From positions 1,116,001 to 1,180,000 of the forward strand of contig NZ_JBEPSD010000001.1 of NCBI RefSeq assembly GCF_040548735.1: a DNA stretch of 64,000 bases, read 5' to 3'. The translations under genes and the position numbers were made by a program. This DNA is from Rhodanobacter soli. GTDB lineage: Bacteria > Pseudomonadota > Gammaproteobacteria > Xanthomonadales > Rhodanobacteraceae. Positions 31,034-42,559 of this stretch are shown here, one piece after another (position 1 is the stretch's first letter; each line of letters opens with the position of its first letter). The notes under the pieces are model-generated. The model was not told the DNA's origin. It saw nothing but the letters and a program-made list of their open reading frames with translations, and ran no database searches.

Positions 31034-31044
<11 letters not shown>
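29704..31044 (-). CDS. Sensor histidine kinase, NtrY/NtrB-like
   Basis: Membrane histidine kinase paired with the NtrC-type regulator directly upstream. Two membrane segments (about 20-41 and 45-63) enclose almost no periplasmic loop, so it probably senses a membrane or cytoplasmic cue. A HAMP-like and a PAS-like stretch (DSAVLVFDHDARLRLLNPAAQRLL) follow. The H-box is RVLGHEVNNSLASIHSL with His241, the N-box LINLLRNAVEAS, and the G-boxes DDGPGLPG and TTKPGGSGIGLALV. The start at 31044 overlaps the regulator stop; MPAFERRV at 31011 is an alternative. It is probably cotranscribed with the exporter genes upstream. Confidence 0.9.
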
Positions 31045-32429
<1,385 letters not shown>

Positions 32430-32463: not shown

Positions 32464-32529
32464 AGTAGGAGCCCGCTCGCGGGCGATGCTTTCGCTTTCT
32501 CATTGGCCTCAAACGAGCGGGCTCCTACT
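32464..32529. repeat. REP-like inverted repeat (AGTAGGAGC family)
   Basis: Arms AGTAGGAGCCCGCTC (32464-32478) and its perfect complement (32515-32529) surround 36 bases. The left unit continues GCGGGCGATGC, a pattern known from Pseudomonas and Xanthomonadales REP sequences (GTAGGAGCG...GCGATGC). It lies between the remnant permease and the regulator, and the right arm contains the permease stop codon. Confidence 0.8.
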
Positions 32530-32809
32530 CGTAGCGCAAGGCAATCGCGGGATCGACGCGCAGTGCACGGGCCAGCGGCATCAGCGAGGCGATCAGCGCC
32601 ACCAGCAACACTGTCAGCAGTACCGGCGCGAATACCCGCATGTCGTGCGCCTGCGTATGCAAGCCGGGATCGGCCAGCAGGCCCGACCACGGCCACGCCA
32701 GCAGGAGGCCGATGCCCAGCCCCACGCCCAGCACCGCCACCGACAGCAGCGCATAGCCACGCCGCCGCGCCAGCCGCCGCCACGCTTCGCGAAATTCGCG
32801 CACGACCAT
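32525..32809 (-). pseudogene. Remnant ABC permease (94 residues, internal deletion)
   Basis: The product starts like the neighbouring permeases (FREAWRRLARRRGYALLSVAVLGVGLGIGLLLAWPW). It then passes directly into a C-terminal FtsX-type helix and tail (FAPVLLTVLLVALIASLMPLARALRVDPAIALRYE). The about 700 residues in between are missing. It keeps a good ribosome site (GGGAGAG) and an intact frame, so a two-helix mini-protein may still be made. It lies last in the row of permease genes, three bases after permease A. Confidence 0.75.
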
Positions 32810-32811
32810 CG

Positions 32812-35253
32812 TCACTCTCCCTTCAAGGCACGCATCGGCGCCACGTTCGCCGCGCGCAGCGCCGGCAGCAGGCAGGCAAGCAACCCGGCGGCAACCAGCA
32901 CCACCGCCACGCCCACCATCACCAGCGGATCGAGCGCACCACTGCGACCAATCAGCGTCATCAGTACCTGCGACACCGCGCGTGCCATCAGCCACGCCAT
33001 CGCAACACCCAGCGCCAACCCCAGCGCGATCTGCCACAAGCCGCCGCGCAGCACCAGCCGCAACAGCCGCGACGGTGCGGCACCCAAGGCCATGCGCACG
33101 CCGAATTCGCGCTCGCGCGCGGCGACCGCCACCGCCATCACCGCGTACAAGCCGGCCGCGGCCAGCAGCACGGCCAATGCGGCGAACACGCCGATCAGGA
33201 GCAGGTTGAGGCGCGCGTCGGCGGTAGTCCGCTCGACGATGCTGCGCATGCTGCGCAGCTTGGCGATGGGTTGCTCGGGCGCCACTTCGGCCACCGCCGC
33301 GCGCACGCCGGCACGCCAATCGTCCGGATTGCCGTGGCCGCGCAGGGCGAAGCGCAGAGGCTCCAGATCGCGGAAGATCGCCATCGTCGGCGCGGGCAGT
33401 TGTACCAGCGGCAGGTACACCACCGGCAGCAGCGGATGCAAAGGCCCACGCTGCCAAGTGCTGGCCACCACGCCGACGATGCGCGCGGGCAGGTGCGGCG
33501 CATCGTTCACTTCCACATCCAGCTCTTTGCCCAGCGCATGCCCGCCATACCATCGGTCGGCCAGATCCTGGCTGACGATCACCACCGGCGCGCCGCCCTG
33601 TCTGTCTTCGCGCGTGAAACCGCGCCCCTCGCGCAGGGCCATGCCGAACACCGTGAAGTAATCCGCGTCGATGCCCTTCATCTGCGCTTCGAATTCATTG
33701 CCCTCGGGCGTGTGCATGCCGTTGTTGAACGAGCCGAAGAGGTCGTCGCTGGTGGGCAGGTTGGTAGTCACGGCGGCATCGGTCACACCGGGGATCATGC
33801 GCAGGCGTTCGACCAGTTGCCGGGTCATGGCCAGCATCGAGGCCGTGTCCGGGTAGTGGCCTTTCACGGGCGCCAACTCGAAGGTGAGCACTCCGGCTTC
33901 CGTGTAGCCAAGCGGTTGGCGCGAGGCCTCGCCGATGGCGTGCATGAACACCCCCGCGGCGCACAGCAGCATCGCCGCCAGGCTCACCTGCGCCACCACC
34001 AGGCTGCGGCTCAGGCGACCGCCGCGGACGCCGGCGCCGCTGCGCCCGCCTTCGCGCAAGGCCTCCGCCCCCGCCGCGCCACGACTGCGCAGCAGGCCGA
34101 ACACGGCCGCCAGCACCGCGCCCAGCAAGCCCATGCCGAAGGCCAGTTGCCACGCCATGGCGCCCGTCTGCACGCGCCCGCCCCACAGCCACAACGAGGG
34201 GATGGACCCCCGCAACAAGGCCAGTCCTGCAGCGGCCAGCGCCATGCCGGCCAGTGCCGCCACGGCGCCGATGAGCAGGCCCTCGGCCAGCGCCGGCAGC
34301 AGGATCCGCCACTGCGACGCGCCCAACGCATGCCGCACCGCGACATCGTGCTGGCGCGCCAGCGCACGCAACAGCATCAGGTTGGCCAGGTTGACCAGGG
34401 CGATCAGCGACACCAGCACCGCGCTGGTGAGGAACAGCAGCAGCATCGGCCGTGTGTCCTGCTGGAAGGCCGAGGCGTAGCCTTCCGCCCCGAAGCGCGG
34501 CTTCTTCCAGTTGCCGCCCATGCCCATGTCGCGGAACATCGTGCGCTCGGCCGCATCCGCCTGCGCCGATGCGGTGGCGATGTCCACACCCTCCGCCAGT
34601 CGCGCGATCGCCTCATGCCCGTTGTGGTAGTAATCGCGGCTCACCGCCGGCAGCGCGGTCGGCAGCACCACGTCGCCCGGCCCCAGCAGGATGCTGAACG
34701 CCGCCGGCAACACGCCCACGATGGTGTGCGTCACGCCTTCCACCTTCAGCGTGCGACCGACCACGCCGGGGTCGCCGCCGTAGGCGCGCTGCCACAGGCC
34801 ATGGCCCAGCAGCACCGCCTTCGGTCCGTCCGAGCGATCCTCCTGTGCGCTGAAGTTGCGCCCCAGCACGGGCCGCAGTGCCAGCGTGGGCAGCAGGCCG
34901 CGATCCATTTCGATCAACGGCACCTGCGCCGGCGCACCCGCTCCCGCGATGTTCACTACCGTACCGAAATGCACCAGCCCCATCGACGCCAGCCCCGCCG
35001 GAGAGCCCAGCGACTGGTACTCGTGCGGCGAGATGCCACCGACGTGGCCGTTGTCGTGCAGCGCACCGATCACCACCAGCCGATCCGCCCGCGGTGCCGG
35101 CAGCGGTCGCCACAAGGTGTTCGCGATCAGCACGAACACCGCCACGCTGGCGCCGATGCCCAGCGCCAGCACGCCGCCGGCGAGCAGCAGGAAGCCGGGG
35201 CGACGCAGGCTGGCGCGCCAGGCACGAAGGATTTCGGCAAGCCAGATGCTCAT
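32812..35253 (-). CDS. ABC transporter permease A, MacB/FtsX type
   Basis: A large 813-residue permease with one N-terminal helix (WRASLRRPGFLLLAGGVLALGIGASVAVFVLI) and a MacB-type periplasmic core domain. Three central helices start near LLLFLTSAVLVSLIALVNLANLMLLRALARQHDVAVRHALGAS. A second helix and periplasmic domain and a final FtsX bundle (LLIGVFAALAVLLAAAGLYAVMAVAVAAREREFGVRMALGA) follow. This duplicated layout is the ADOP type ('acidobacterial duplicated orphan permease'), an established family name. Substrates are unknown, and peptides or lipids are possible. It starts with ATG at 35253 and is the third of three paralogues in the operon. Confidence 0.88.
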   Translation of the reverse strand: MSIWLAEILRAWRASLRRPGFLLLAGGVLALGIGASVAVFVLIANTLWRPLPAPRADRLVVIGALHDNGHVGGISPHEYQSLGSPAGLASMGLVHFGTVVNIAGAGAPAQVPLIEMDRGLLPTLALRPVLGRNFSAQEDRSDGPKAVLLGHGLWQRAYGGDPGVVGRTLKVEGVTHTIVGVLPAAFSILLGPGDVVLPTALPAVSRDYYHNGHEAIARLAEGVDIATASAQADAAERTMFRDMGMGGNWKKPRFGAEGYASAFQQDTRPMLLLFLTSAVLVSLIALVNLANLMLLRALARQHDVAVRHALGASQWRILLPALAEGLLIGAVAALAGMALAAAGLALLRGSIPSLWLWGGRVQTGAMAWQLAFGMGLLGAVLAAVFGLLRSRGAAGAEALREGGRSGAGVRGGRLSRSLVVAQVSLAAMLLCAAGVFMHAIGEASRQPLGYTEAGVLTFELAPVKGHYPDTASMLAMTRQLVERLRMIPGVTDAAVTTNLPTSDDLFGSFNNGMHTPEGNEFEAQMKGIDADYFTVFGMALREGRGFTREDRQGGAPVVIVSQDLADRWYGGHALGKELDVEVNDAPHLPARIVGVVASTWQRGPLHPLLPVVYLPLVQLPAPTMAIFRDLEPLRFALRGHGNPDDWRAGVRAAVAEVAPEQPIAKLRSMRSIVERTTADARLNLLLIGVFAALAVLLAAAGLYAVMAVAVAAREREFGVRMALGAAPSRLLRLVLRGGLWQIALGLALGVAMAWLMARAVSQVLMTLIGRSGALDPLVMVGVAVVLVAAGLLACLLPALRAANVAPMRALKGE

Positions 35254-35330: not shown

Positions 35331-37763
35331 CTAATCTCCCTGCAGGACGCGCATCGGTTGGACCCGGCCCGCGCGCACGGCGGGCGCGAGACAGGCAAGC
35401 AGGCCGAAGGCCAGCAACAGCACGCAGACACCGCCCGCGACCCACGGTCCGAACATCGCATGCGACCCGAGCTGCGCGAACGAGGCCGCGAACACCCGCG
35501 GGAAGGCAGCCGCCAAGGCCAGCCCCAGCGCCAGGCCGACCGCGATCTGGGCCATCCCGCCGCGCAGCACCAGCGCGGCCAGTCGTGCAGGCGATGCGCC
35601 CAAGGCGGAGCGCACGCCCAGCTCGTGCTCGCGCGCCGCCACCGCGACCGACATCACCGCGTAGAGGCCGGCTCCAGCGAGCAGCAAGGCCATCGTCGCG
35701 AACACGCCGCAGATCCAGATGCCGGTCCGCGCGCCACCCGATGCCTCGGCGACGATCGAGCGCATGCTGCGCACCTGCGCGACCGGTTGCTGCGGCGCCA
35801 CCGCGGCGACGATCTCGCTCAGCGCCTTGCCATAGCCGGCAACATCGCCGTGCACGCGCAAGGCGAAATGCATCGATTCGATGCTGCGGAAGCCGGCCAT
35901 GAGCGCATCGGGCATCTGCGCCAGCGGCACGTAAAGTTCCGCGGGCCTCGAACCAGAGGCCTGCCTCGGGTAGGTGTCGTCGACCACGCCCACGATGCGC
36001 GCCGTCCACGGCTTGCCCGGATGGGCCGTATCGTCCATCTGCACCTGCCGGCCCAGCGCCTGCCCGCCATACATCCGCTCGGCCATGGTCCGGCCGATGA
36101 CCGCCACCGCTTCGCTGCCGCGTCCGTCCTCCGGCGTGAACAGCCGACCACGCTGCGGGCGGATGCCGAACAGCCGGAAATAATCCGCGCCCACGGCGCG
36201 ATAGAGAACGAACGTCGGCTCGTCACCCTGCGCGTGCGCGGCGACGCCGAAGGAGCCGAGGAAACCGTCCAGCGGCAGGCTGGTGGACGCTGCGGCGTCA
36301 AGCACGCCGGGCAGCTGGCGCATGCGCTCGACGAGCCGTTGCGACAGGGCCGTCACCGCCTGCACGTCCGGGTAGTCGGCCTGCACCGGGGCGAGCGCGA
36401 CCGTCGCCACGTCGGCATAGTCGAAACCCCACTGCGCGCGCGCATCGTCCCAGGACTTGCGCAGGAAGATCCCGCAGGCGCACAGCAGCACCACCGTCAG
36501 CGTCACTTGCGCGGTCACCAGCACGCGGCTGAGCCGGCCCTGGTAACGCGTGCCACCGCTGCGGCCGCCCTCGCGCAACTCGTCGAAGGAAACGATGGCG
36601 CGGGCCCGCCACAGGCCCAGCACCGCGGACCCCAGCGTCGCCAGCAGCGACACCAGCACCACCAGCAGCAAGGTGTGCGTCCCCAGATGCAGCTCGCCGC
36701 CGATGGCCTCGGGCGGAATGATGCTGCGCAGTACCGCCACGCCTGCCAGCGCCAGCAGGATGCCGAAGCCGGCGCCGAGCAGGCCCACCAGCAGGCTTTC
36801 TGCGAGCAGCGGCGCACCGGGGCGCCAGCGCTGCGCGCCCAGCGCCGTGCGCACCGCAGTGTCGCGCTGCCGCGCCAGTGCTCGCAGCAGCAACAGGTTC
36901 GCCTCGTTGACCAGGGCGATCAGCAACACCAGCAGCGCGCTGGCCTGGAACAGCACCAGCACACGGGCGCCCTGCACATGCAAGGCGGCGTGGTAGTCGC
37001 TGGCACCGTAGCGGGCGTGGTTGTCGCGGTTTGCAGCGGAACGGGCGGCGTCCGCCTGCAGTCGCGCTTCCACCTGCGCACCCACCGCGTCGGGAGTTGC
37101 GCTATCGGCGAGGCGTGCGATCGCGAGGTAGAGGGGCTGGCCGTCGGCACCATCGGGCGTCAGCATGGCCGGCAGCACGATGTCGCCGCCTGTGCCCGCC
37201 GCAACGAATGCCTCGGGCAACACGCCGACGATAGTGTGCGGCGTGCCTTCGACTTTCAGCGTCCGACCGATTGCGGCCGGATTGCCCGCGTACTGGCGCT
37301 GCCAGAAATCGTGGGTGAGCATGACGACCGGCGGCCCGTGCGGACTGTCCTCGCCCGCAGCGAAGTTGCGCCCGAGCTGCGGCCGCATGCCGAGCGTGGG
37401 CAGCAGGTTGTGGTCGGCGTAGGTCGCCTCCACCCGCTGCGGCACGCCGTCGCGCTCGATATTGACGATCGGCGTGGCGAATGCAAGCAGGCCGATCGAG
37501 CGCACGCCATCCAGGTCCTGCAGCGCCGCGTACTGCCGCGTGGAAACCCGCGGCGGCCACCTGGGGACCAGCTTGCCCACGGCCACCAGGCGCGATGCCT
37601 GCGGCAGCGGCAAGGGCTTGAGCAGCACCTGGTCGATCAGGTTGAACGCCACCGCGCTGGCCCCCACGCCCAGCGCCAGTACGCCGCTCGCCAGCAGCAG
37701 GAAGCCGGGCCTGCGCAAGCTGGTACGCCATGCGCGCCAGATTTCGGCGAGCCAGATGTTCAT
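35331..37763 (-). CDS. ABC transporter permease B, MacB/FtsX type
   Basis: An 810-residue paralogue of the permeases on either side, with the same N-terminus (NIWLAEIWRAWRTSLRRPGFLLLASGVLALGVGASA). The central block is ASALLVLLIALVNEANLLLLRALARQRDTAVRTALGAQ, and the final FtsX bundle contains GLYAVMSVAVAAREHELGVRSALGASPARL. Two periplasmic MacB-like domains lie between. The ATG at 37763 lies in the same sequence context (SQIWLAEI after a Shine-Dalgarno-poor leader) as the start of permease A. The 77 bases between its stop and permease A carry no gene. Confidence 0.88.
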   Translation of the reverse strand: MNIWLAEIWRAWRTSLRRPGFLLLASGVLALGVGASAVAFNLIDQVLLKPLPLPQASRLVAVGKLVPRWPPRVSTRQYAALQDLDGVRSIGLLAFATPIVNIERDGVPQRVEATYADHNLLPTLGMRPQLGRNFAAGEDSPHGPPVVMLTHDFWQRQYAGNPAAIGRTLKVEGTPHTIVGVLPEAFVAAGTGGDIVLPAMLTPDGADGQPLYLAIARLADSATPDAVGAQVEARLQADAARSAANRDNHARYGASDYHAALHVQGARVLVLFQASALLVLLIALVNEANLLLLRALARQRDTAVRTALGAQRWRPGAPLLAESLLVGLLGAGFGILLALAGVAVLRSIIPPEAIGGELHLGTHTLLLVVLVSLLATLGSAVLGLWRARAIVSFDELREGGRSGGTRYQGRLSRVLVTAQVTLTVVLLCACGIFLRKSWDDARAQWGFDYADVATVALAPVQADYPDVQAVTALSQRLVERMRQLPGVLDAAASTSLPLDGFLGSFGVAAHAQGDEPTFVLYRAVGADYFRLFGIRPQRGRLFTPEDGRGSEAVAVIGRTMAERMYGGQALGRQVQMDDTAHPGKPWTARIVGVVDDTYPRQASGSRPAELYVPLAQMPDALMAGFRSIESMHFALRVHGDVAGYGKALSEIVAAVAPQQPVAQVRSMRSIVAEASGGARTGIWICGVFATMALLLAGAGLYAVMSVAVAAREHELGVRSALGASPARLAALVLRGGMAQIAVGLALGLALAAAFPRVFAASFAQLGSHAMFGPWVAGGVCVLLLAFGLLACLAPAVRAGRVQPMRVLQGD

Positions 37764-37796: not shown

Positions 37797-40283
37797 CTAC
37801 TCCCCGCGCAAGGCGCGCATCGGCGGCACGCGTGCCGCGCGCAGCGCCGGCAGCAGGCAGGCCAGCAGGCCGGCGGCGGCCAGCACCAGGCATACGCCAG
37901 CCATGGCGAAAGGATCGAAGACGCTGCGGTCGATCTCCTCCATCACGGCACCAAGCACGCGCGACAGAGCCAGCGTGATGCCCATGCCGAGGAACAGCCC
38001 CATCGCGATCTGCCGCAACCCTCCCTGCAGCACCATGCGCACCAGGCCCGGCGACGATGCGCCCAGTGCCATGCGCACGCCGAATTCGCGCTGGCGCGCC
38101 GCGACTGCCACCGTCATCACGGCGTACATCCCGGCGGCAGCCAACCCCAGCGCCAGCAGCGCGAACAAGCCAACCAGGAACAGGTTGCGCCGCGTGTCGT
38201 CGGTGGTCGCGTGCACGATCCCAGCCATTGTCTGCAGGTTGGCGATGGGTTGTTGCGGCGCCACGTCGGCGACTGCTGCGCGGACGGCCTGACGATAATT
38301 GTCGGGGTTGCCTTGCACGCGCAGCGCAAAGCGCAGCGGCTGGAAGGAACGAAACACCCGCACGACGTGCTCGGGCATCTGCACAAGAGGGAGATAGAGG
38401 AACGCGCGCTTCTGGTCATCCAGCGGACCGAATTGCCGCGTATCGCCGGCCACGCCGACGATGCGCGCCGTCACCGGGCGAAAGGTCGGGTCGCCAGAGA
38501 GCTTCTTGCCGGCGGAGTATCCGCTGTAATCGTTGACGACGATGCCCTTGCCCAGCGCGTGGCCACCGTATTCCCGCTCGGCCAGCGTCCGGTTCACGAT
38601 GGCCACCGGCTCGCTGCCCGCGGTGTCGGTGGCGTCAAAGGAGCGCCCTTCGCGCATGGGGATGCGAAACACGGAGAAAAAGTCGGCGTTCACTCCGCGA
38701 ATCTGCGGATTCGGATCGAAATAGTCCTTGCCTGGGGCGTGCACGCCGCCCATGTTGAACTGCTGCCCGAAGTCTCCCGCCGGCAGGCCGTTGGTGACGG
38801 CGACGTGCTCGACGCCGGGCAATGCACGCAGGCGCCGCAGCAGTCCCCGGACCAGGGTTTGCGTCGACGCGGCATCAGGGTTGCTGGCCCGCACCGGCGC
38901 CAGGTCGAAGGTCAGGATGTGGTCGCTGGCGAAACCCAGCGGCGTGCGCGCGGCATCGTAGAGCGCATGCAGGAACAGGCCGGTGCCGCACATCAGGCAG
39001 GTCGCCAGGCTCATTTGCGCCACCACCAGCACCCGCCCCAGGCGGCCGCCATGGCGCCCCGGCGTGCGGCCCCCTTCATGCAACGCCTCCTGCACCGACG
39101 CCGAGGAGAGCCCGCGCCACGCACCGAACATCGCCGCCAGCAGCGCCCCCGGCACGGCGATCGCCAGCGTCAACAGCACCAGCCCGGCCGACATGCGCGC
39201 CGCTTCACCATGCATCCATGCCGTCGGGACGTAATGACTGAACAGGGACAACCCCGCCGCCGCCAGCCCCGCGCCGACGAGGGCGCCGCTGGTGCCGACC
39301 AGCACGCCCTCGGCGCAGGCCGGCAGCGCCAGCCGCCACACCGGCGCGCCCAAGGCATGGCGCACGGTCGCATCGTGGTGGCGCGACAAGGTGCGCAGCA
39401 GCATGAGATTGCCGAGATTGACCAGTGCGATCAGCAGCACGCCCAGCGCGCTGGCCAGGAACAGCAGCATGACCGGGCGCTGCTGCTGGTGCAGCGCCGC
39501 CGACAGCGGCACGCTGCCGAAACGCACGTGCTTCCAGTAGTCGGCGTTCGCATCGGCGAGGCCCGCATACATGGCCTGCATGGCGGCGTTCGCCCGGGCA
39601 TCGACTACCGCGGCGCTGGCCCCCGGCGCCAATCGCGCGACCGCGATGAAGTTGGTGCCGTCGTCGTAAGTGTTCGGTTGCAACGCCAGCGGCAACATGA
39701 TGTCGCCCTGGCCGAACTGATCGAAACTGGCAGGCAGCACACCGACGATGGTATGCGCCACGCCCTCGACCCGCAGGTTGCGGCCGATCACCGCCGACGC
39801 GCCGCCATAGCGGCGGCGCCAGTAGCCCTCGGCGAGAATCACCGCCTTCGGGCCGCCCGGGCGGTCCTCCTGTTCCGAGAAGCCTCGCCCGAGCCGCATC
39901 CGTACGCCGAGCGTGGGCAGCAGGCCGCGATCGGCGAAGAAGGCGTTCACCTGCTCCGGCTCGCCGTCGCCGGCCACATTGACGGCCGTGAACTCGCCCT
40001 TGATCAGGCCCATCGACGTCATGCCGCCGACGGGCTGCATGTGCTGGTATTGCTGGGGCGTAATGCCATTGAACCGATGTCCCTCGTCCAGCGAGCCCAG
40101 CGCGACCAATTGCTCGGGCGAGGCATAAGGCAAGGGCCGCAACAGCACGTCGTCGACCAGCACGCATACCGCCGCGCTGGCGCCGACGCCCAGCGCCAGC
40201 ACACCGCTGGCCAGCAGAAAAAAACCCGGCCGGCGCAGGCAGGTGCGCCAGGCGCGCCAGACTTCGGCCAGCCAGACGTTCAT
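37797..40283 (-). CDS. ABC transporter permease C, MacB/FtsX type
   Basis: An 828-residue protein, first of the three tandem paralogues after the ATPase. It has the shared N-terminal block (NVWLAEVWRAWRTCLRRPGFFLLASGVLALGVGASA), a MacB core domain, and the central helices LLFLASALGVLLIALVNLGNLMLLRTLSRHHDATVRHALGAP. A second periplasmic domain and a C-terminal FtsX bundle end in LLACLLPALRAARVPPMRALRGE. The ATG at 40283 overlaps the ATPase stop by four bases, so the two are coupled. It differs enough in the periplasmic regions from A and B that these may bind different cargo or form hetero-pairs. Confidence 0.88.
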   Translation of the reverse strand: MNVWLAEVWRAWRTCLRRPGFFLLASGVLALGVGASAAVCVLVDDVLLRPLPYASPEQLVALGSLDEGHRFNGITPQQYQHMQPVGGMTSMGLIKGEFTAVNVAGDGEPEQVNAFFADRGLLPTLGVRMRLGRGFSEQEDRPGGPKAVILAEGYWRRRYGGASAVIGRNLRVEGVAHTIVGVLPASFDQFGQGDIMLPLALQPNTYDDGTNFIAVARLAPGASAAVVDARANAAMQAMYAGLADANADYWKHVRFGSVPLSAALHQQQRPVMLLFLASALGVLLIALVNLGNLMLLRTLSRHHDATVRHALGAPVWRLALPACAEGVLVGTSGALVGAGLAAAGLSLFSHYVPTAWMHGEAARMSAGLVLLTLAIAVPGALLAAMFGAWRGLSSASVQEALHEGGRTPGRHGGRLGRVLVVAQMSLATCLMCGTGLFLHALYDAARTPLGFASDHILTFDLAPVRASNPDAASTQTLVRGLLRRLRALPGVEHVAVTNGLPAGDFGQQFNMGGVHAPGKDYFDPNPQIRGVNADFFSVFRIPMREGRSFDATDTAGSEPVAIVNRTLAEREYGGHALGKGIVVNDYSGYSAGKKLSGDPTFRPVTARIVGVAGDTRQFGPLDDQKRAFLYLPLVQMPEHVVRVFRSFQPLRFALRVQGNPDNYRQAVRAAVADVAPQQPIANLQTMAGIVHATTDDTRRNLFLVGLFALLALGLAAAGMYAVMTVAVAARQREFGVRMALGASSPGLVRMVLQGGLRQIAMGLFLGMGITLALSRVLGAVMEEIDRSVFDPFAMAGVCLVLAAAGLLACLLPALRAARVPPMRALRGE

Positions 40284-41044
40284 GCATCGACCTCGACATG
40301 GCCACCGATCAGCGCATCCAGCCGCTGCTCGTCTTCGCGGCGCAGGCGGTCGTAGGTTTCCTCGTCGACCACGCGGCCGTCGAACAGGCGGATCTTGCGC
40401 TGGGCCAGTTCGGCGTAGCGGGCGTCGTGGGTGACCATGCAGATGGTGGCGCCGCCCTTGTGCAGTTCGTCCAACAGGGCCATCACCGCCTCGCCGTTGC
40501 GCGAATCGAGATTGCCGGTGGGTTCGTCGGCGAGCAGGATCGCCGGCTTGCCGACCAGCGCACGCGCCACCGCCACGCGCTGCTGCTGGCCGCCGGAAAG
40601 CTGCGCCGGGTAGTGCCGCATGCGGTGCGCCATGCCGACGCGTTCCAACGCCTCCTGCACCCGCTCGCGTCGCTCGCCGGCGCCGATGCCGCTGCGATAG
40701 GTCAGCGGCAGTTCCACGTTCTCCTGCACGCTCAGGTCGCCGATCAGGTTGAACGCCTGGAAAATGAAACCGATCTCGGCGTTGCGGATGCGCGCGCGCT
40801 CGGCGGCGTTGAGCGCGGCCACGTCGTGCCCGTTCAGTACGTAGCTGCCGGCGCTGGCGGTATCGAGTAGGCCGAGGATCGACAGCAGCGTGGTCTTGCC
40901 GCAACCGGACGGGCCGGAGATGGACACGTATTCGCCGCGGCGGATGTCAAGGTGCACGTCGGCCAGTGCGTGTGTTTCCACCTCGTCGGTCTGGAATACC
41001 TTGCGGATGCCGCCGAGGGCGATGACGGAAGTCGGTTCGTTCAT
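40280..41044 (-). CDS. ABC transporter ATP-binding protein, MacB/LolD type
   Basis: Nucleotide-binding subunit that powers the three permeases. The 254-residue protein has Walker A GPSGCGKTT (44-52), Q-loop FIFQAFNLIGDLSVQENVELPL, signature LSGGQQQR (149-156), Walker B ILLADEPTGNLD (169-180) and the H-loop MVTHDARYA. The FQAFNL/ENVELPL pattern is characteristic of the MacB/LolD branch. The C-terminus has an extra charged tail (YDRLRREDEQRLDALIGGHVEVDA). The ATG at 41044 has AGGGA upstream; the in-frame extension to 41095 lacks family similarity. Confidence 0.94.
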   Translation of the reverse strand: MNEPTSVIALGGIRKVFQTDEVETHALADVHLDIRRGEYVSISGPSGCGKTTLLSILGLLDTASAGSYVLNGHDVAALNAAERARIRNAEIGFIFQAFNLIGDLSVQENVELPLTYRSGIGAGERRERVQEALERVGMAHRMRHYPAQLSGGQQQRVAVARALVGKPAILLADEPTGNLDSRNGEAVMALLDELHKGGATICMVTHDARYAELAQRKIRLFDGRVVDEETYDRLRREDEQRLDALIGGHVEVDA

Positions 41045-41173: not shown

Positions 41174-42427
41174 TCAGCGCAGGCGCAGGCGGTCATATTT
41201 GTCCCATTGGCTGGTGTCGGAAAGGATCACACGGTCGCCCGGCTGCAGACCTTGCAGCAATTGCACGCGGTCGACCGAGGTAGCGCCCACACGCACCTTC
41301 ACGCGAGTGGCGGTGTCGCCGGAGGCATCGAGGCGGAACAGGCTCACCTCGCTGTTCGCCTCGACCTGGGCGGGCCGTCCCAGCGACAGCACCTGGTCGA
41401 GTTTCGCAATGCGGATGCGGCTGTCGACCGACAGATCCGGGCGTGCGCCAGCCGGCAGCGCGCCGATCGGCGTCACGTCCACCTGCACGCTGCCGTCGAC
41501 CACCGCCGGATCGATGCGCGTGACGGTGCCGTCGATCATGCCGTTGTAGGTGTTCACCTGTGCGGACATGCCCAGCGCCACGTCCTTGGCCTGCACCTCG
41601 GGCACGCGCAGCCGCGCGATCAGCACGTCGCCGCGCGCGACCCGCGCCAGGTCGGTACCGGCAGCGACCTGCTGGCCTTCCTGCACGGCGACCTGCTGCA
41701 GCGTGCCGGCGATGCCGGCGCGCACGTCCAGTGCATCGGACTGGCGTTGGCGCAAGGTCAGGTTGCTGCGCTGCAATTGCAGTTGGGCGCGCATCGCAGC
41801 CATCTGCGCGGCGATGCCGGCGCCGAACGTCTGCACGCGCTGCTGCTCGACTTCGGCGCGATGCATGAGCTGGTTCAGCGCGATCAGTTCCTGCTCGTAC
41901 TGCACGCGGGGAATCAGGTTCTTCGCCACCGCCTTGGCGTCGGCGTCGCTGCGGACCTTGGCCGAGGCGTAGTCGGCCTGGGCCTGGGCCAGCGAGGAAC
42001 GTTCGTCGAGCAACTGCGATTGCAGTTCGGCGTGCTTGGCGACGACCTGCGCCTCCGCCGCCGCGACCTGCGCCTCGGCGTTACGCAGGTCGTTCTCCAC
42101 CTGCGGGCTGCTCAGGCGCAGCAGCACCGTGTCCGGCTCCACATGGGTGCCTGGCCACATTTCGATCTTCGCTACCTGCGCGCTGGTCTGCGCCGCCAGC
42201 CAGTGGATATCGCGCGGCACCAGGGTGCCCGGCGCACGCACCTCGCGCAGCATGTCGCCGCGCTGCACGCTGTCGATCCACAGGCTCGAGCGCTCCGCCG
42301 TGGGCAGGGCCGGGCCGAGACTGGCCGCGCCGACGGCAATGCCGGTGAGCAGCAACGCACTGGCACCGATGGCGATCCGTTTGCGGCGGCGCTTGCGCTG
42401 GGCGGCGAGGGGGTTGGCGATATCCAT
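41174..42427 (-). CDS. Periplasmic adaptor (membrane fusion) protein, HlyD/MacA family
   Basis: Links the inner-membrane ABC complex to an outer-membrane TolC-type channel. The 417-residue protein has a basic N-terminus (AAQRKRRRKR), one membrane helix (about 19-38), and a lipoyl/barrel half (GDMLREVRAPGTLVPRDI...VAKIEMWPGTHVEPDTVLLRL). A long coiled coil follows (about 108-205, QVENDLRNAEAQVAAAEAQVVAKHAELQ), then the second barrel half (VRAGIAGTLQQVAVQEGQQVAAGT) and a C-terminal membrane-proximal domain. The ATG at 42427 was chosen because the sigma54 promoter occupies the in-frame extension upstream. No tolC gene lies nearby. Confidence 0.9.
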   Translation of the reverse strand: MDIANPLAAQRKRRRKRIAIGASALLLTGIAVGAASLGPALPTAERSSLWIDSVQRGDMLREVRAPGTLVPRDIHWLAAQTSAQVAKIEMWPGTHVEPDTVLLRLSSPQVENDLRNAEAQVAAAEAQVVAKHAELQSQLLDERSSLAQAQADYASAKVRSDADAKAVAKNLIPRVQYEQELIALNQLMHRAEVEQQRVQTFGAGIAAQMAAMRAQLQLQRSNLTLRQRQSDALDVRAGIAGTLQQVAVQEGQQVAAGTDLARVARGDVLIARLRVPEVQAKDVALGMSAQVNTYNGMIDGTVTRIDPAVVDGSVQVDVTPIGALPAGARPDLSVDSRIRIAKLDQVLSLGRPAQVEANSEVSLFRLDASGDTATRVKVRVGATSVDRVQLLQGLQPGDRVILSDTSQWDKYDRLRLR

Positions 42428-42438
42428 GAGCCGGTCAG

Positions 42439-42454
42439 AGCAAGGCCCGTGCCA
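42439..42454 (-). promoter_or_regulatory. Sigma54 (-24/-12) promoter of the exporter operon
   Basis: The minus strand reads TGGCACGGGCCTTGCT, an exact fit to the consensus TGGCACG-N4-TTGCW. Counting from the GC at -12, transcription would begin one base before or at the hlyD ATG (42427). The linked regulator is of the NtrC family. Confidence 0.8.
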
Positions 42455-42518
42455 TGCGTGCAAGCCATTGTCGCGCAAGGGATCAGGCCAGTGCCGAGGG
42501 CGATGCCGCCGTTCGCTG

Positions 42519-42536
42519 CCGGGCAGTGCTGTCCGG
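42519..42536 (-). promoter_or_regulatory. Candidate enhancer dyad for the NtrC-type regulator
   Basis: CCGGGCAG-TG-CTGTCCGG is an 18-base dyad with 7 of 8 pairs matched. It is centred about 100 bases upstream of the predicted sigma54 start, the usual distance for an NtrC-family enhancer site. Confidence 0.5.
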
Positions 42537-42559
42537 AGTCGTACGCTTGCAGGAGACGG

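Follow-up and report, generated by a model that had tools for sequence, protein, structure and literature searches.

A conserved sigma-54 promoter and a predicted leaderless transcript at a multi-permease ABC exporter operon of Rhodanobacter soli

The usual picture of a sigma-54 promoter includes an ordinary leader, and leaderless genes are commonly associated with −10 elements of the sigma-70 type. Transcription from a sigma-54 promoter usually starts about 12 bases past the −12 element. Where such promoters are activated by NtrC-type regulators they combine a −24/−12 element, tandem upstream palindromes and a regulator with receiver, AAA+ and helix-turn-helix parts, features in common with the locus described here; an IHF-like site likewise occurs in many relatives of this operon. 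With the leaderless messages recorded in proteobacterial transcription start maps (Sinorhizobium, Bradyrhizobium) the locus shares a start at the AUG, here predicted, and the absence of a Shine-Dalgarno sequence. In the accessible text of the Bradyrhizobium study the motif reported for leaderless genes is of the extended −10 type, not −24/−12 (PMC4842269), and the portions of PMC3616915 consulted treat leaderless starts and sigma-54 promoters separately.

Three groups of transport systems are relevant to the gene products. MacB/ADOP exporters and the darobactin exporter DarBCD resemble the present system in their duplicated MacB_PCD/FtsX permease, HlyD-type adaptor and DarD/MacB-like ATPase. 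In BceRSAB-type modules of Firmicutes, likewise, an ABC transporter whose extracytoplasmic domains are large stands beside a kinase that has two membrane segments joined by a tiny loop, the loops of Bce-type kinases being given as 3–11 residues in the text available (PMC3023708). For Opitutia, a 2025 survey, as far as its accessible sections go, predicts sigma-54 control of COG1136 antimicrobial-peptide-type ABC systems (PMC12316311), that is, a sigma-54 promoter before a MacB/LolD-type ABC system, as here.

The window, the 64 kb stretch of R. soli DNA that was analysed, contains an operon that shares features with each of these. Taken as a whole it is probably a signal-induced exporter operon, read from a single sigma-54 promoter into a leaderless transcript, a reading built on sequence comparison.

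Gene content and layout

The genes lie on the minus strand in the order adaptor, ATPase, three permeases, a 94-residue remnant, NtrC-type regulator and kinase (Table 1). The nearest NCBIfam equivalog of the adaptor is DarC, with a score far under the DarC cut-off, and the best match of the ATPase is DarD, again under the cut-off. All three large permeases carry the MacB_PCD and FtsX domains in duplicate. The curated cut-off of TIGR03434 (ADOP) is 622.3 bits; permease 1 scores above this value and permeases 2 and 3 slightly under it. The gene upstream of the adaptor is, to judge from its translation, presumably ppc, and the 132-bp gap between its stop codon and the adaptor ATG holds the sigma-54 element.

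Table 1. Features of the operon and of its upstream region, in window coordinates.
Feature	Coordinates	Strand	Evidence or remark
Periplasmic adaptor (membrane fusion protein), first gene	41174..42427	-	Pfam HlyD_3, HlyD_D23
ABC ATPase	40280..41044	-	Pfam ABC_tran
Duplicated permease 1 (ADOP)	37797..40283	-	TIGR03434, 625.4 bits
Duplicated permease 2 (ADOP-like)	35331..37763	-	TIGR03434, 598.2 bits; MacB_PCD and FtsX, twice each
Duplicated permease 3 (ADOP-like)	32812..35253	-	TIGR03434, 613.1 bits; MacB_PCD and FtsX, twice each
94-aa remnant of another permease	32525..32809	-	Weak FtsX match
NtrC-type regulator (receiver, AAA+ with GAYTDA, lid)	31219..32429	-	Response_reg, Sigma54_activat, AAA_lid_14
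Stretch coding for the Fis-type helix-turn-helix of the regulator, different frame	31034..31218	-	
Histidine kinase, two membrane segments, very short loop	29704..31011	-	PAS_4, HATPase_c
Sigma-54 −24/−12 promoter, TGGCACGGGCCTTGCT	42439..42454	-	Same element 12–14 bases before ATG in 73 of 82 relatives
Predicted transcript start, at the ATG (42427–42425) or no more than about 2 bases away	42426..42430	-	Usual sigma-54 spacing
Palindrome A, CGTACGACTCCGGACA, half of tandem pair	42530..42545	-	
Palindrome B, TGCCCGGCAGCGAACG, 20 bp from A	42510..42525	-	
18-base dyad	42519..42536	-	Inner half-sites of A and B

Relatives were sought by an adaptor search of 299 genomes of the order, 90 of which gave a match. 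The 95 adaptor matches led to 94 fetched loci, the partial G090 being omitted. Main counts refer to the 82 loci with an adaptor identity of at least 39%, a cut-off chosen after inspection of the data; the 12 loci below it were excluded from these counts, and two of them (L147 and L149) carry the promoter element at 13 bases. Motif counts refer to 78 loci, the promoterless L126, L128, L132 and L137 having been set aside. Adaptor starts were assigned to the nearest codon giving Met-Asp, hence this dipeptide is not independent evidence for the starts.

The initial annotation had proposed a self-contained export operon with its own regulator and kinase, preceded by a sigma-54 promoter and upstream sites, and the comparison supports this layout. 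The order adaptor, ATPase, permeases, regulator, kinase is recurrent, with the regulator downstream on the same strand in 46 of the 82 loci and regulator and kinase both there in 43. The regulator is divergent and upstream in six loci and the kinase directly upstream in five. No regulator was found in the fetched stretch at 25 of the 82 loci, nine of these stretches being shorter than 14 kb. The permease complement is variable; across the operons L064–L157 the number of full-length copies runs from one to at least five, and the identity between copies is often near 30%. The remnant in the window, between permease 3 and the regulator, occupies the slot of an extra full-length permease in relatives.

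The sigma-54 element and its distance from the start codon

The sigma-54 consensus site of the initial annotation is present at 42454–42439 on the minus strand, with GG at −24 and GC at −12 in the correct spacing. Within the window alone it is unremarkable, as a search allowing one mismatch returns one site where shuffles lead one to expect 1.24; it is retention in relatives that argues against a chance match. The pattern TGGCA[CT]-N6-TGC occurs 12–14 bases before the adaptor ATG in 73 of the 82 loci (55 at 13, 10 at 14 and eight at 12), and an element with one mismatch in four more (L101, L127, L129 and L130), giving 77. The other five (L104, L126, L128, L132 and L137) have no element near the ATG even at one mismatch, and at four of them another gene abuts. 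Shuffled upstream stretches gave the exact pattern in none of 24,600 cases and the one-mismatch form in 14 of 24,600. Positive loci are spread over eight family-level groups and include every one of the 29 loci of the window's family. Over the whole genome the exact pattern TGGCACGNNNNTTGCW is found 12 times and its reversed control not at all. One of the 12 sites precedes a gene that we take to encode glutamine synthetase (L007), and the glutamine synthetase gene is a familiar sigma-54 target. The genome has one RpoN (a single Sigma54_DBD match), and the sigma-54 activator domain is matched 12 times, eight of these matches being strong. On these comparative grounds the sigma-54 site is real and conserved.

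What the initial annotation missed is that the promoter abuts the start codon, so that the message should be leaderless. The C of the −12 element, at 42440, lies 13 bases from the A of the adaptor ATG. With an element 12–14 bases before the ATG and the usual sigma-54 spacing, the RNA should start no more than about two bases from the AUG. Between element and ATG the sequence differs from locus to locus and the length of the stretch is constant. Shine-Dalgarno-like words occur at one of 78 adaptor starts as against 36 of 73 ATPase starts in the same operons, and predicted pairing with the 16S tail is −6 kcal/mol or stronger at 0% of adaptor starts and 32% of ATPase starts. The base at −1 is a pyrimidine at 76 of 78 adaptor starts (55 of 73 in the ATPase control), which agrees with a transcript beginning at the A of the ATG. 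The promoter set against the start codon and the missing ribosome-binding words together point to a conserved, predicted leaderless sigma-54 transcript of the adaptor operon.

Could the promoter be real and the message nonetheless have a leader? Another promoter might supply it, or translation might begin at an upstream in-frame TTG, GTG or ATG, the spacing of the element being then simply inherited by descent. Upstream in-frame starts are indeed present at 51 of 78 loci (ATG at 25, GTG or TTG at 26 more), including a TTG at 42460–42462 in the window, 12 codons ahead of the adaptor ATG, and at such loci a longer adaptor protein may formally be made. In addition three distant adaptor loci outside the order (L169, L170 and L171, 35–38% identity) have the same −24/−12 element and a predicted leader of about 25 bases. 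However, 27 of the 78 loci have no upstream start ahead of an in-frame stop, and at 14 the stop falls within nine codons. An upstream start would also fall inside or before the promoter and therefore be absent from the sigma-54 message. Together with the constant length of a stretch of varying bases and the near absence of Shine-Dalgarno-like words, this makes a message with a leader unlikely, and the predicted leaderless transcript is the reading we follow.

The arrangement appears specific, since a paralogous operon in the same genome (C1:1008000-1031000; L164, L165) has a sigma-54 site from which a leader of 35 bases is predicted. Its adaptor is 28% identical to that of the window and the comparable regulator part 46%. 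This distant operon has a similar plan and carries TGTCCGCGGACA repeats upstream; elsewhere in the genome, L006 and L012 are sigma-54 sites with TGTCCGCGGACA upstream and with similar short downstream genes starting MKFE. In scans of 369 genomes of the class by pattern and by protein the leaderless form was not found to be widespread beyond the order. The pattern with the window's spacing occurs at two places, the window itself and an unrelated gene (L162), and with the spacing of distance 14 at three, one of which is a true relative (L159). The adaptor protein search gave a match in five genomes, its own included. Of the other four, which lie outside the order, L168 has the predicted leaderless form, with the element at distance 14, and L169–L171 have the element with a leader.

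Upstream palindromes and the regulatory pair

Upstream of the promoter the initial annotation had recognized an 18-base dyad as enhancer. The sequence is present and is no better than chance: when the 132 bp between the genes are shuffled 2000 times, arms matching at seven of eight positions arise in 41% of shuffles with gaps of 0–8 allowed, and in 9% with a gap of exactly two. Its placement about 100 bases upstream holds when measured from the predicted transcript start; from edge to edge, dyad and sigma-54 site are 65 bases apart. The true units are, from conservation, two tandem palindromes of the 16-bp type TGTCCG-N4-CGGACA, predicted to be regulator sites.

When perfect inverted repeats are counted without a seed over 73 non-redundant upstream regions, TCCG-N4-CGGA ranks first (28 regions, shuffle mean 0.8), GTCC-N6-GGAC second (24 regions, shuffle mean 0.35) and CGGA-N8-TCCG, the type of the dyad in the initial annotation, third (14 regions, shuffle mean 0.7). 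The dyad type does recur, less commonly than the leading repeat, and as the unit of regulator binding the 18-base dyad was rejected on this ranking and on the tandem pairs described below. With a matrix for the 16-bp palindrome, 71 of 78 loci have a site exceeding the 95% shuffle level and 66 have one exceeding the 99% level; the matrix was seeded from a consensus that had already been viewed, the controls being the unseeded count and a held-out test. In that test a matrix from the 57 distant loci recovered 21 of 21 near loci (gene-internal control 0 of 21), and one from the 21 near loci recovered 42 of 57 distant loci (control two of 57).

Pairs of palindromes 19–23 bp apart are found at 44 of 78 loci. 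The spacing is 20 bp in 19 pairs and 21 bp in 11, and the full tandem pair 20 bp apart occurs at 19 loci. Distances between palindrome and promoter at the 66 loci with a good site show helical clustering (R 0.67 at 10.5 bp, equalled by none of 5000 jittered sets), a significance that is overstated as the loci are related. An IHF-like site (WATCAANNNNTTR, with no more than one mismatch) is present at 39 of 78 loci where 2.8 are expected; these sites lie between palindromes and promoter, mostly 54–57 bases ahead of the ATG. The window has no such site, its best candidate having three mismatches. A genome-wide search for a wider regulon, allowing one mismatch to TGTCCG-N4-CGGACA, gave five places and the reversed control six, hence no sign of such a regulon.

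With these data a further alternative can be assessed, namely that sigma-54 match and dyad are both accidental. Neither exceeds shuffles within the window alone. Conservation refutes the idea, and the excess of exact sites in the genome over the reversed control, the unseeded repeat count, the held-out motif test and the promoter spacing in relatives are all contrary to it. We regard coincidence as almost inconceivable, and a conserved promoter with upstream palindromes as the reading to pursue.

The regulator and its kinase had been placed at the end of the operon, and their domains confirm this; the reading frame of the regulator, not remarked before, is broken at a run of nine G (31219–31227), which leaves the helix-turn-helix in another frame. 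By its receiver and Sigma54_activat domains the protein is still a member of the NtrC type, with the Fis-type helix-turn-helix out of the shared reading frame and with GAYTDA in place of the canonical GAFTGA loop. Of 52 regulator matches, 51 could be read, and all 51 have GA[FY]TDA (GAYTDA 29, GAFTDA 22). In NorR the same Gly to Asp substitution (G266D) releases the protein from its repressing domain and leaves it able to activate transcription, according to the accessible text of PMC2941729, and the part of PMC4641369 consulted lists GAFTDA and GAYTDA among the variants expected to activate in Desulfovibrio vulgaris.

The kinase has the appearance of an intramembrane-sensing enzyme, with two hydrophobic membrane segments joined by a loop of a few residues, almost no periplasmic part and transporter genes alongside. 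The two-segment reading was made by eye from the hydropathy of the 44 kinases whose N-terminus was present; the first segment alone is over the threshold in L076 and L080.

Is the operon still active in this strain, or are promoter and enhancer relics left since the regulator lost its DNA-binding end? The helix-turn-helix is in frame in all 45 relatives whose C-terminus is visible, where the longest G or C run is five. The shrinkage of one permease to a remnant and the imperfect match of palindromes A and B in the window are also in keeping with decay. Against this, promoter, adaptor, ATPase, three permeases and kinase are all open, the closest relative (93% adaptor identity) is intact, and homopolymer runs are a common site of assembly errors. 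The G9 interruption is possibly a sequencing or assembly error, a switchable run or a true loss. A silent operon is an alternative that we hold to be rather improbable, and the working model remains an inducible one.

Proposed mechanism and comparison with known systems

The model has six steps. The kinase, almost without a periplasmic part, would sense the membrane or how the exporter is working and, as the gene pairing suggests, phosphorylate the neighbouring NtrC-type regulator. The regulator would bind the tandem palindromes, identified by conservation, some 100–120 bases upstream of the start and on one face of the DNA; this step is doubtful in the present genome, where the frame break cuts off the regulator's DNA-binding end. 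Bending of the DNA, for which many relatives would use IHF, would help the regulator to open sigma-54 polymerase at −24/−12. The RNA would begin at the adaptor AUG or within about two bases of it and be translated without a Shine-Dalgarno sequence, as the spacing and the missing ribosome-binding words strongly imply. Expression would then yield adaptor, ATPase and permeases together with more regulator and kinase. The positive feedback that this gene order suggests, already part of the initial annotation, is a prediction that the same frame break weakens for this strain.

Why should a sigma-54 promoter be set against a start codon? A −24/−12 element that keeps its distance from the AUG in eight family-level groups represents a clear and testable lock between promoter and start codon. 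Conceivably the leaderless start was selected so that a sigma-54-induced exporter stays translated when Shine-Dalgarno-led initiation is impaired, for example by the compounds exported, a suggestion we consider speculative and probably wrong. If true, the operon would be an emergency export module that is leaderless, transporter-sensing and driven by sigma-54. Its promoter would belong to a class for which the accessible parts of the papers listed hold no description, and no paper on RpoN in Rhodanobacter was found in the literature searched.

Several differences from the described systems are apparent. Compared with other NtrC-activated sigma-54 promoters the predicted leader is 0–2 bases, order-wide, and GA[FY]TDA replaces GAFTGA. 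Whereas the Bce module has a 10-TM BceB permease and an OmpR-type regulator, neither is found here; an NtrC-type regulator and sigma-54 are combined with an adaptor, a separate ATPase and duplicated ADOP permeases of unrelated architecture. Unlike MacB/ADOP exporters and DarBCD, the operons have several non-identical permeases each, and the adaptor and ATPase score under the DarC and DarD cut-offs. The Opitutia systems belong to another phylum, and the accessible text of PMC12316311 describes no leaderless spacing, enhancer or regulator for them. The operon ties an NtrC-type activator, with GAFTGA altered at the very glycine studied in NorR, and a kinase devoid of a sensor domain to a multi-permease exporter. 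Promoter, regulator and permeases are thus of known types, and the new element is the conserved, predicted leaderless start at a sigma-54 promoter.
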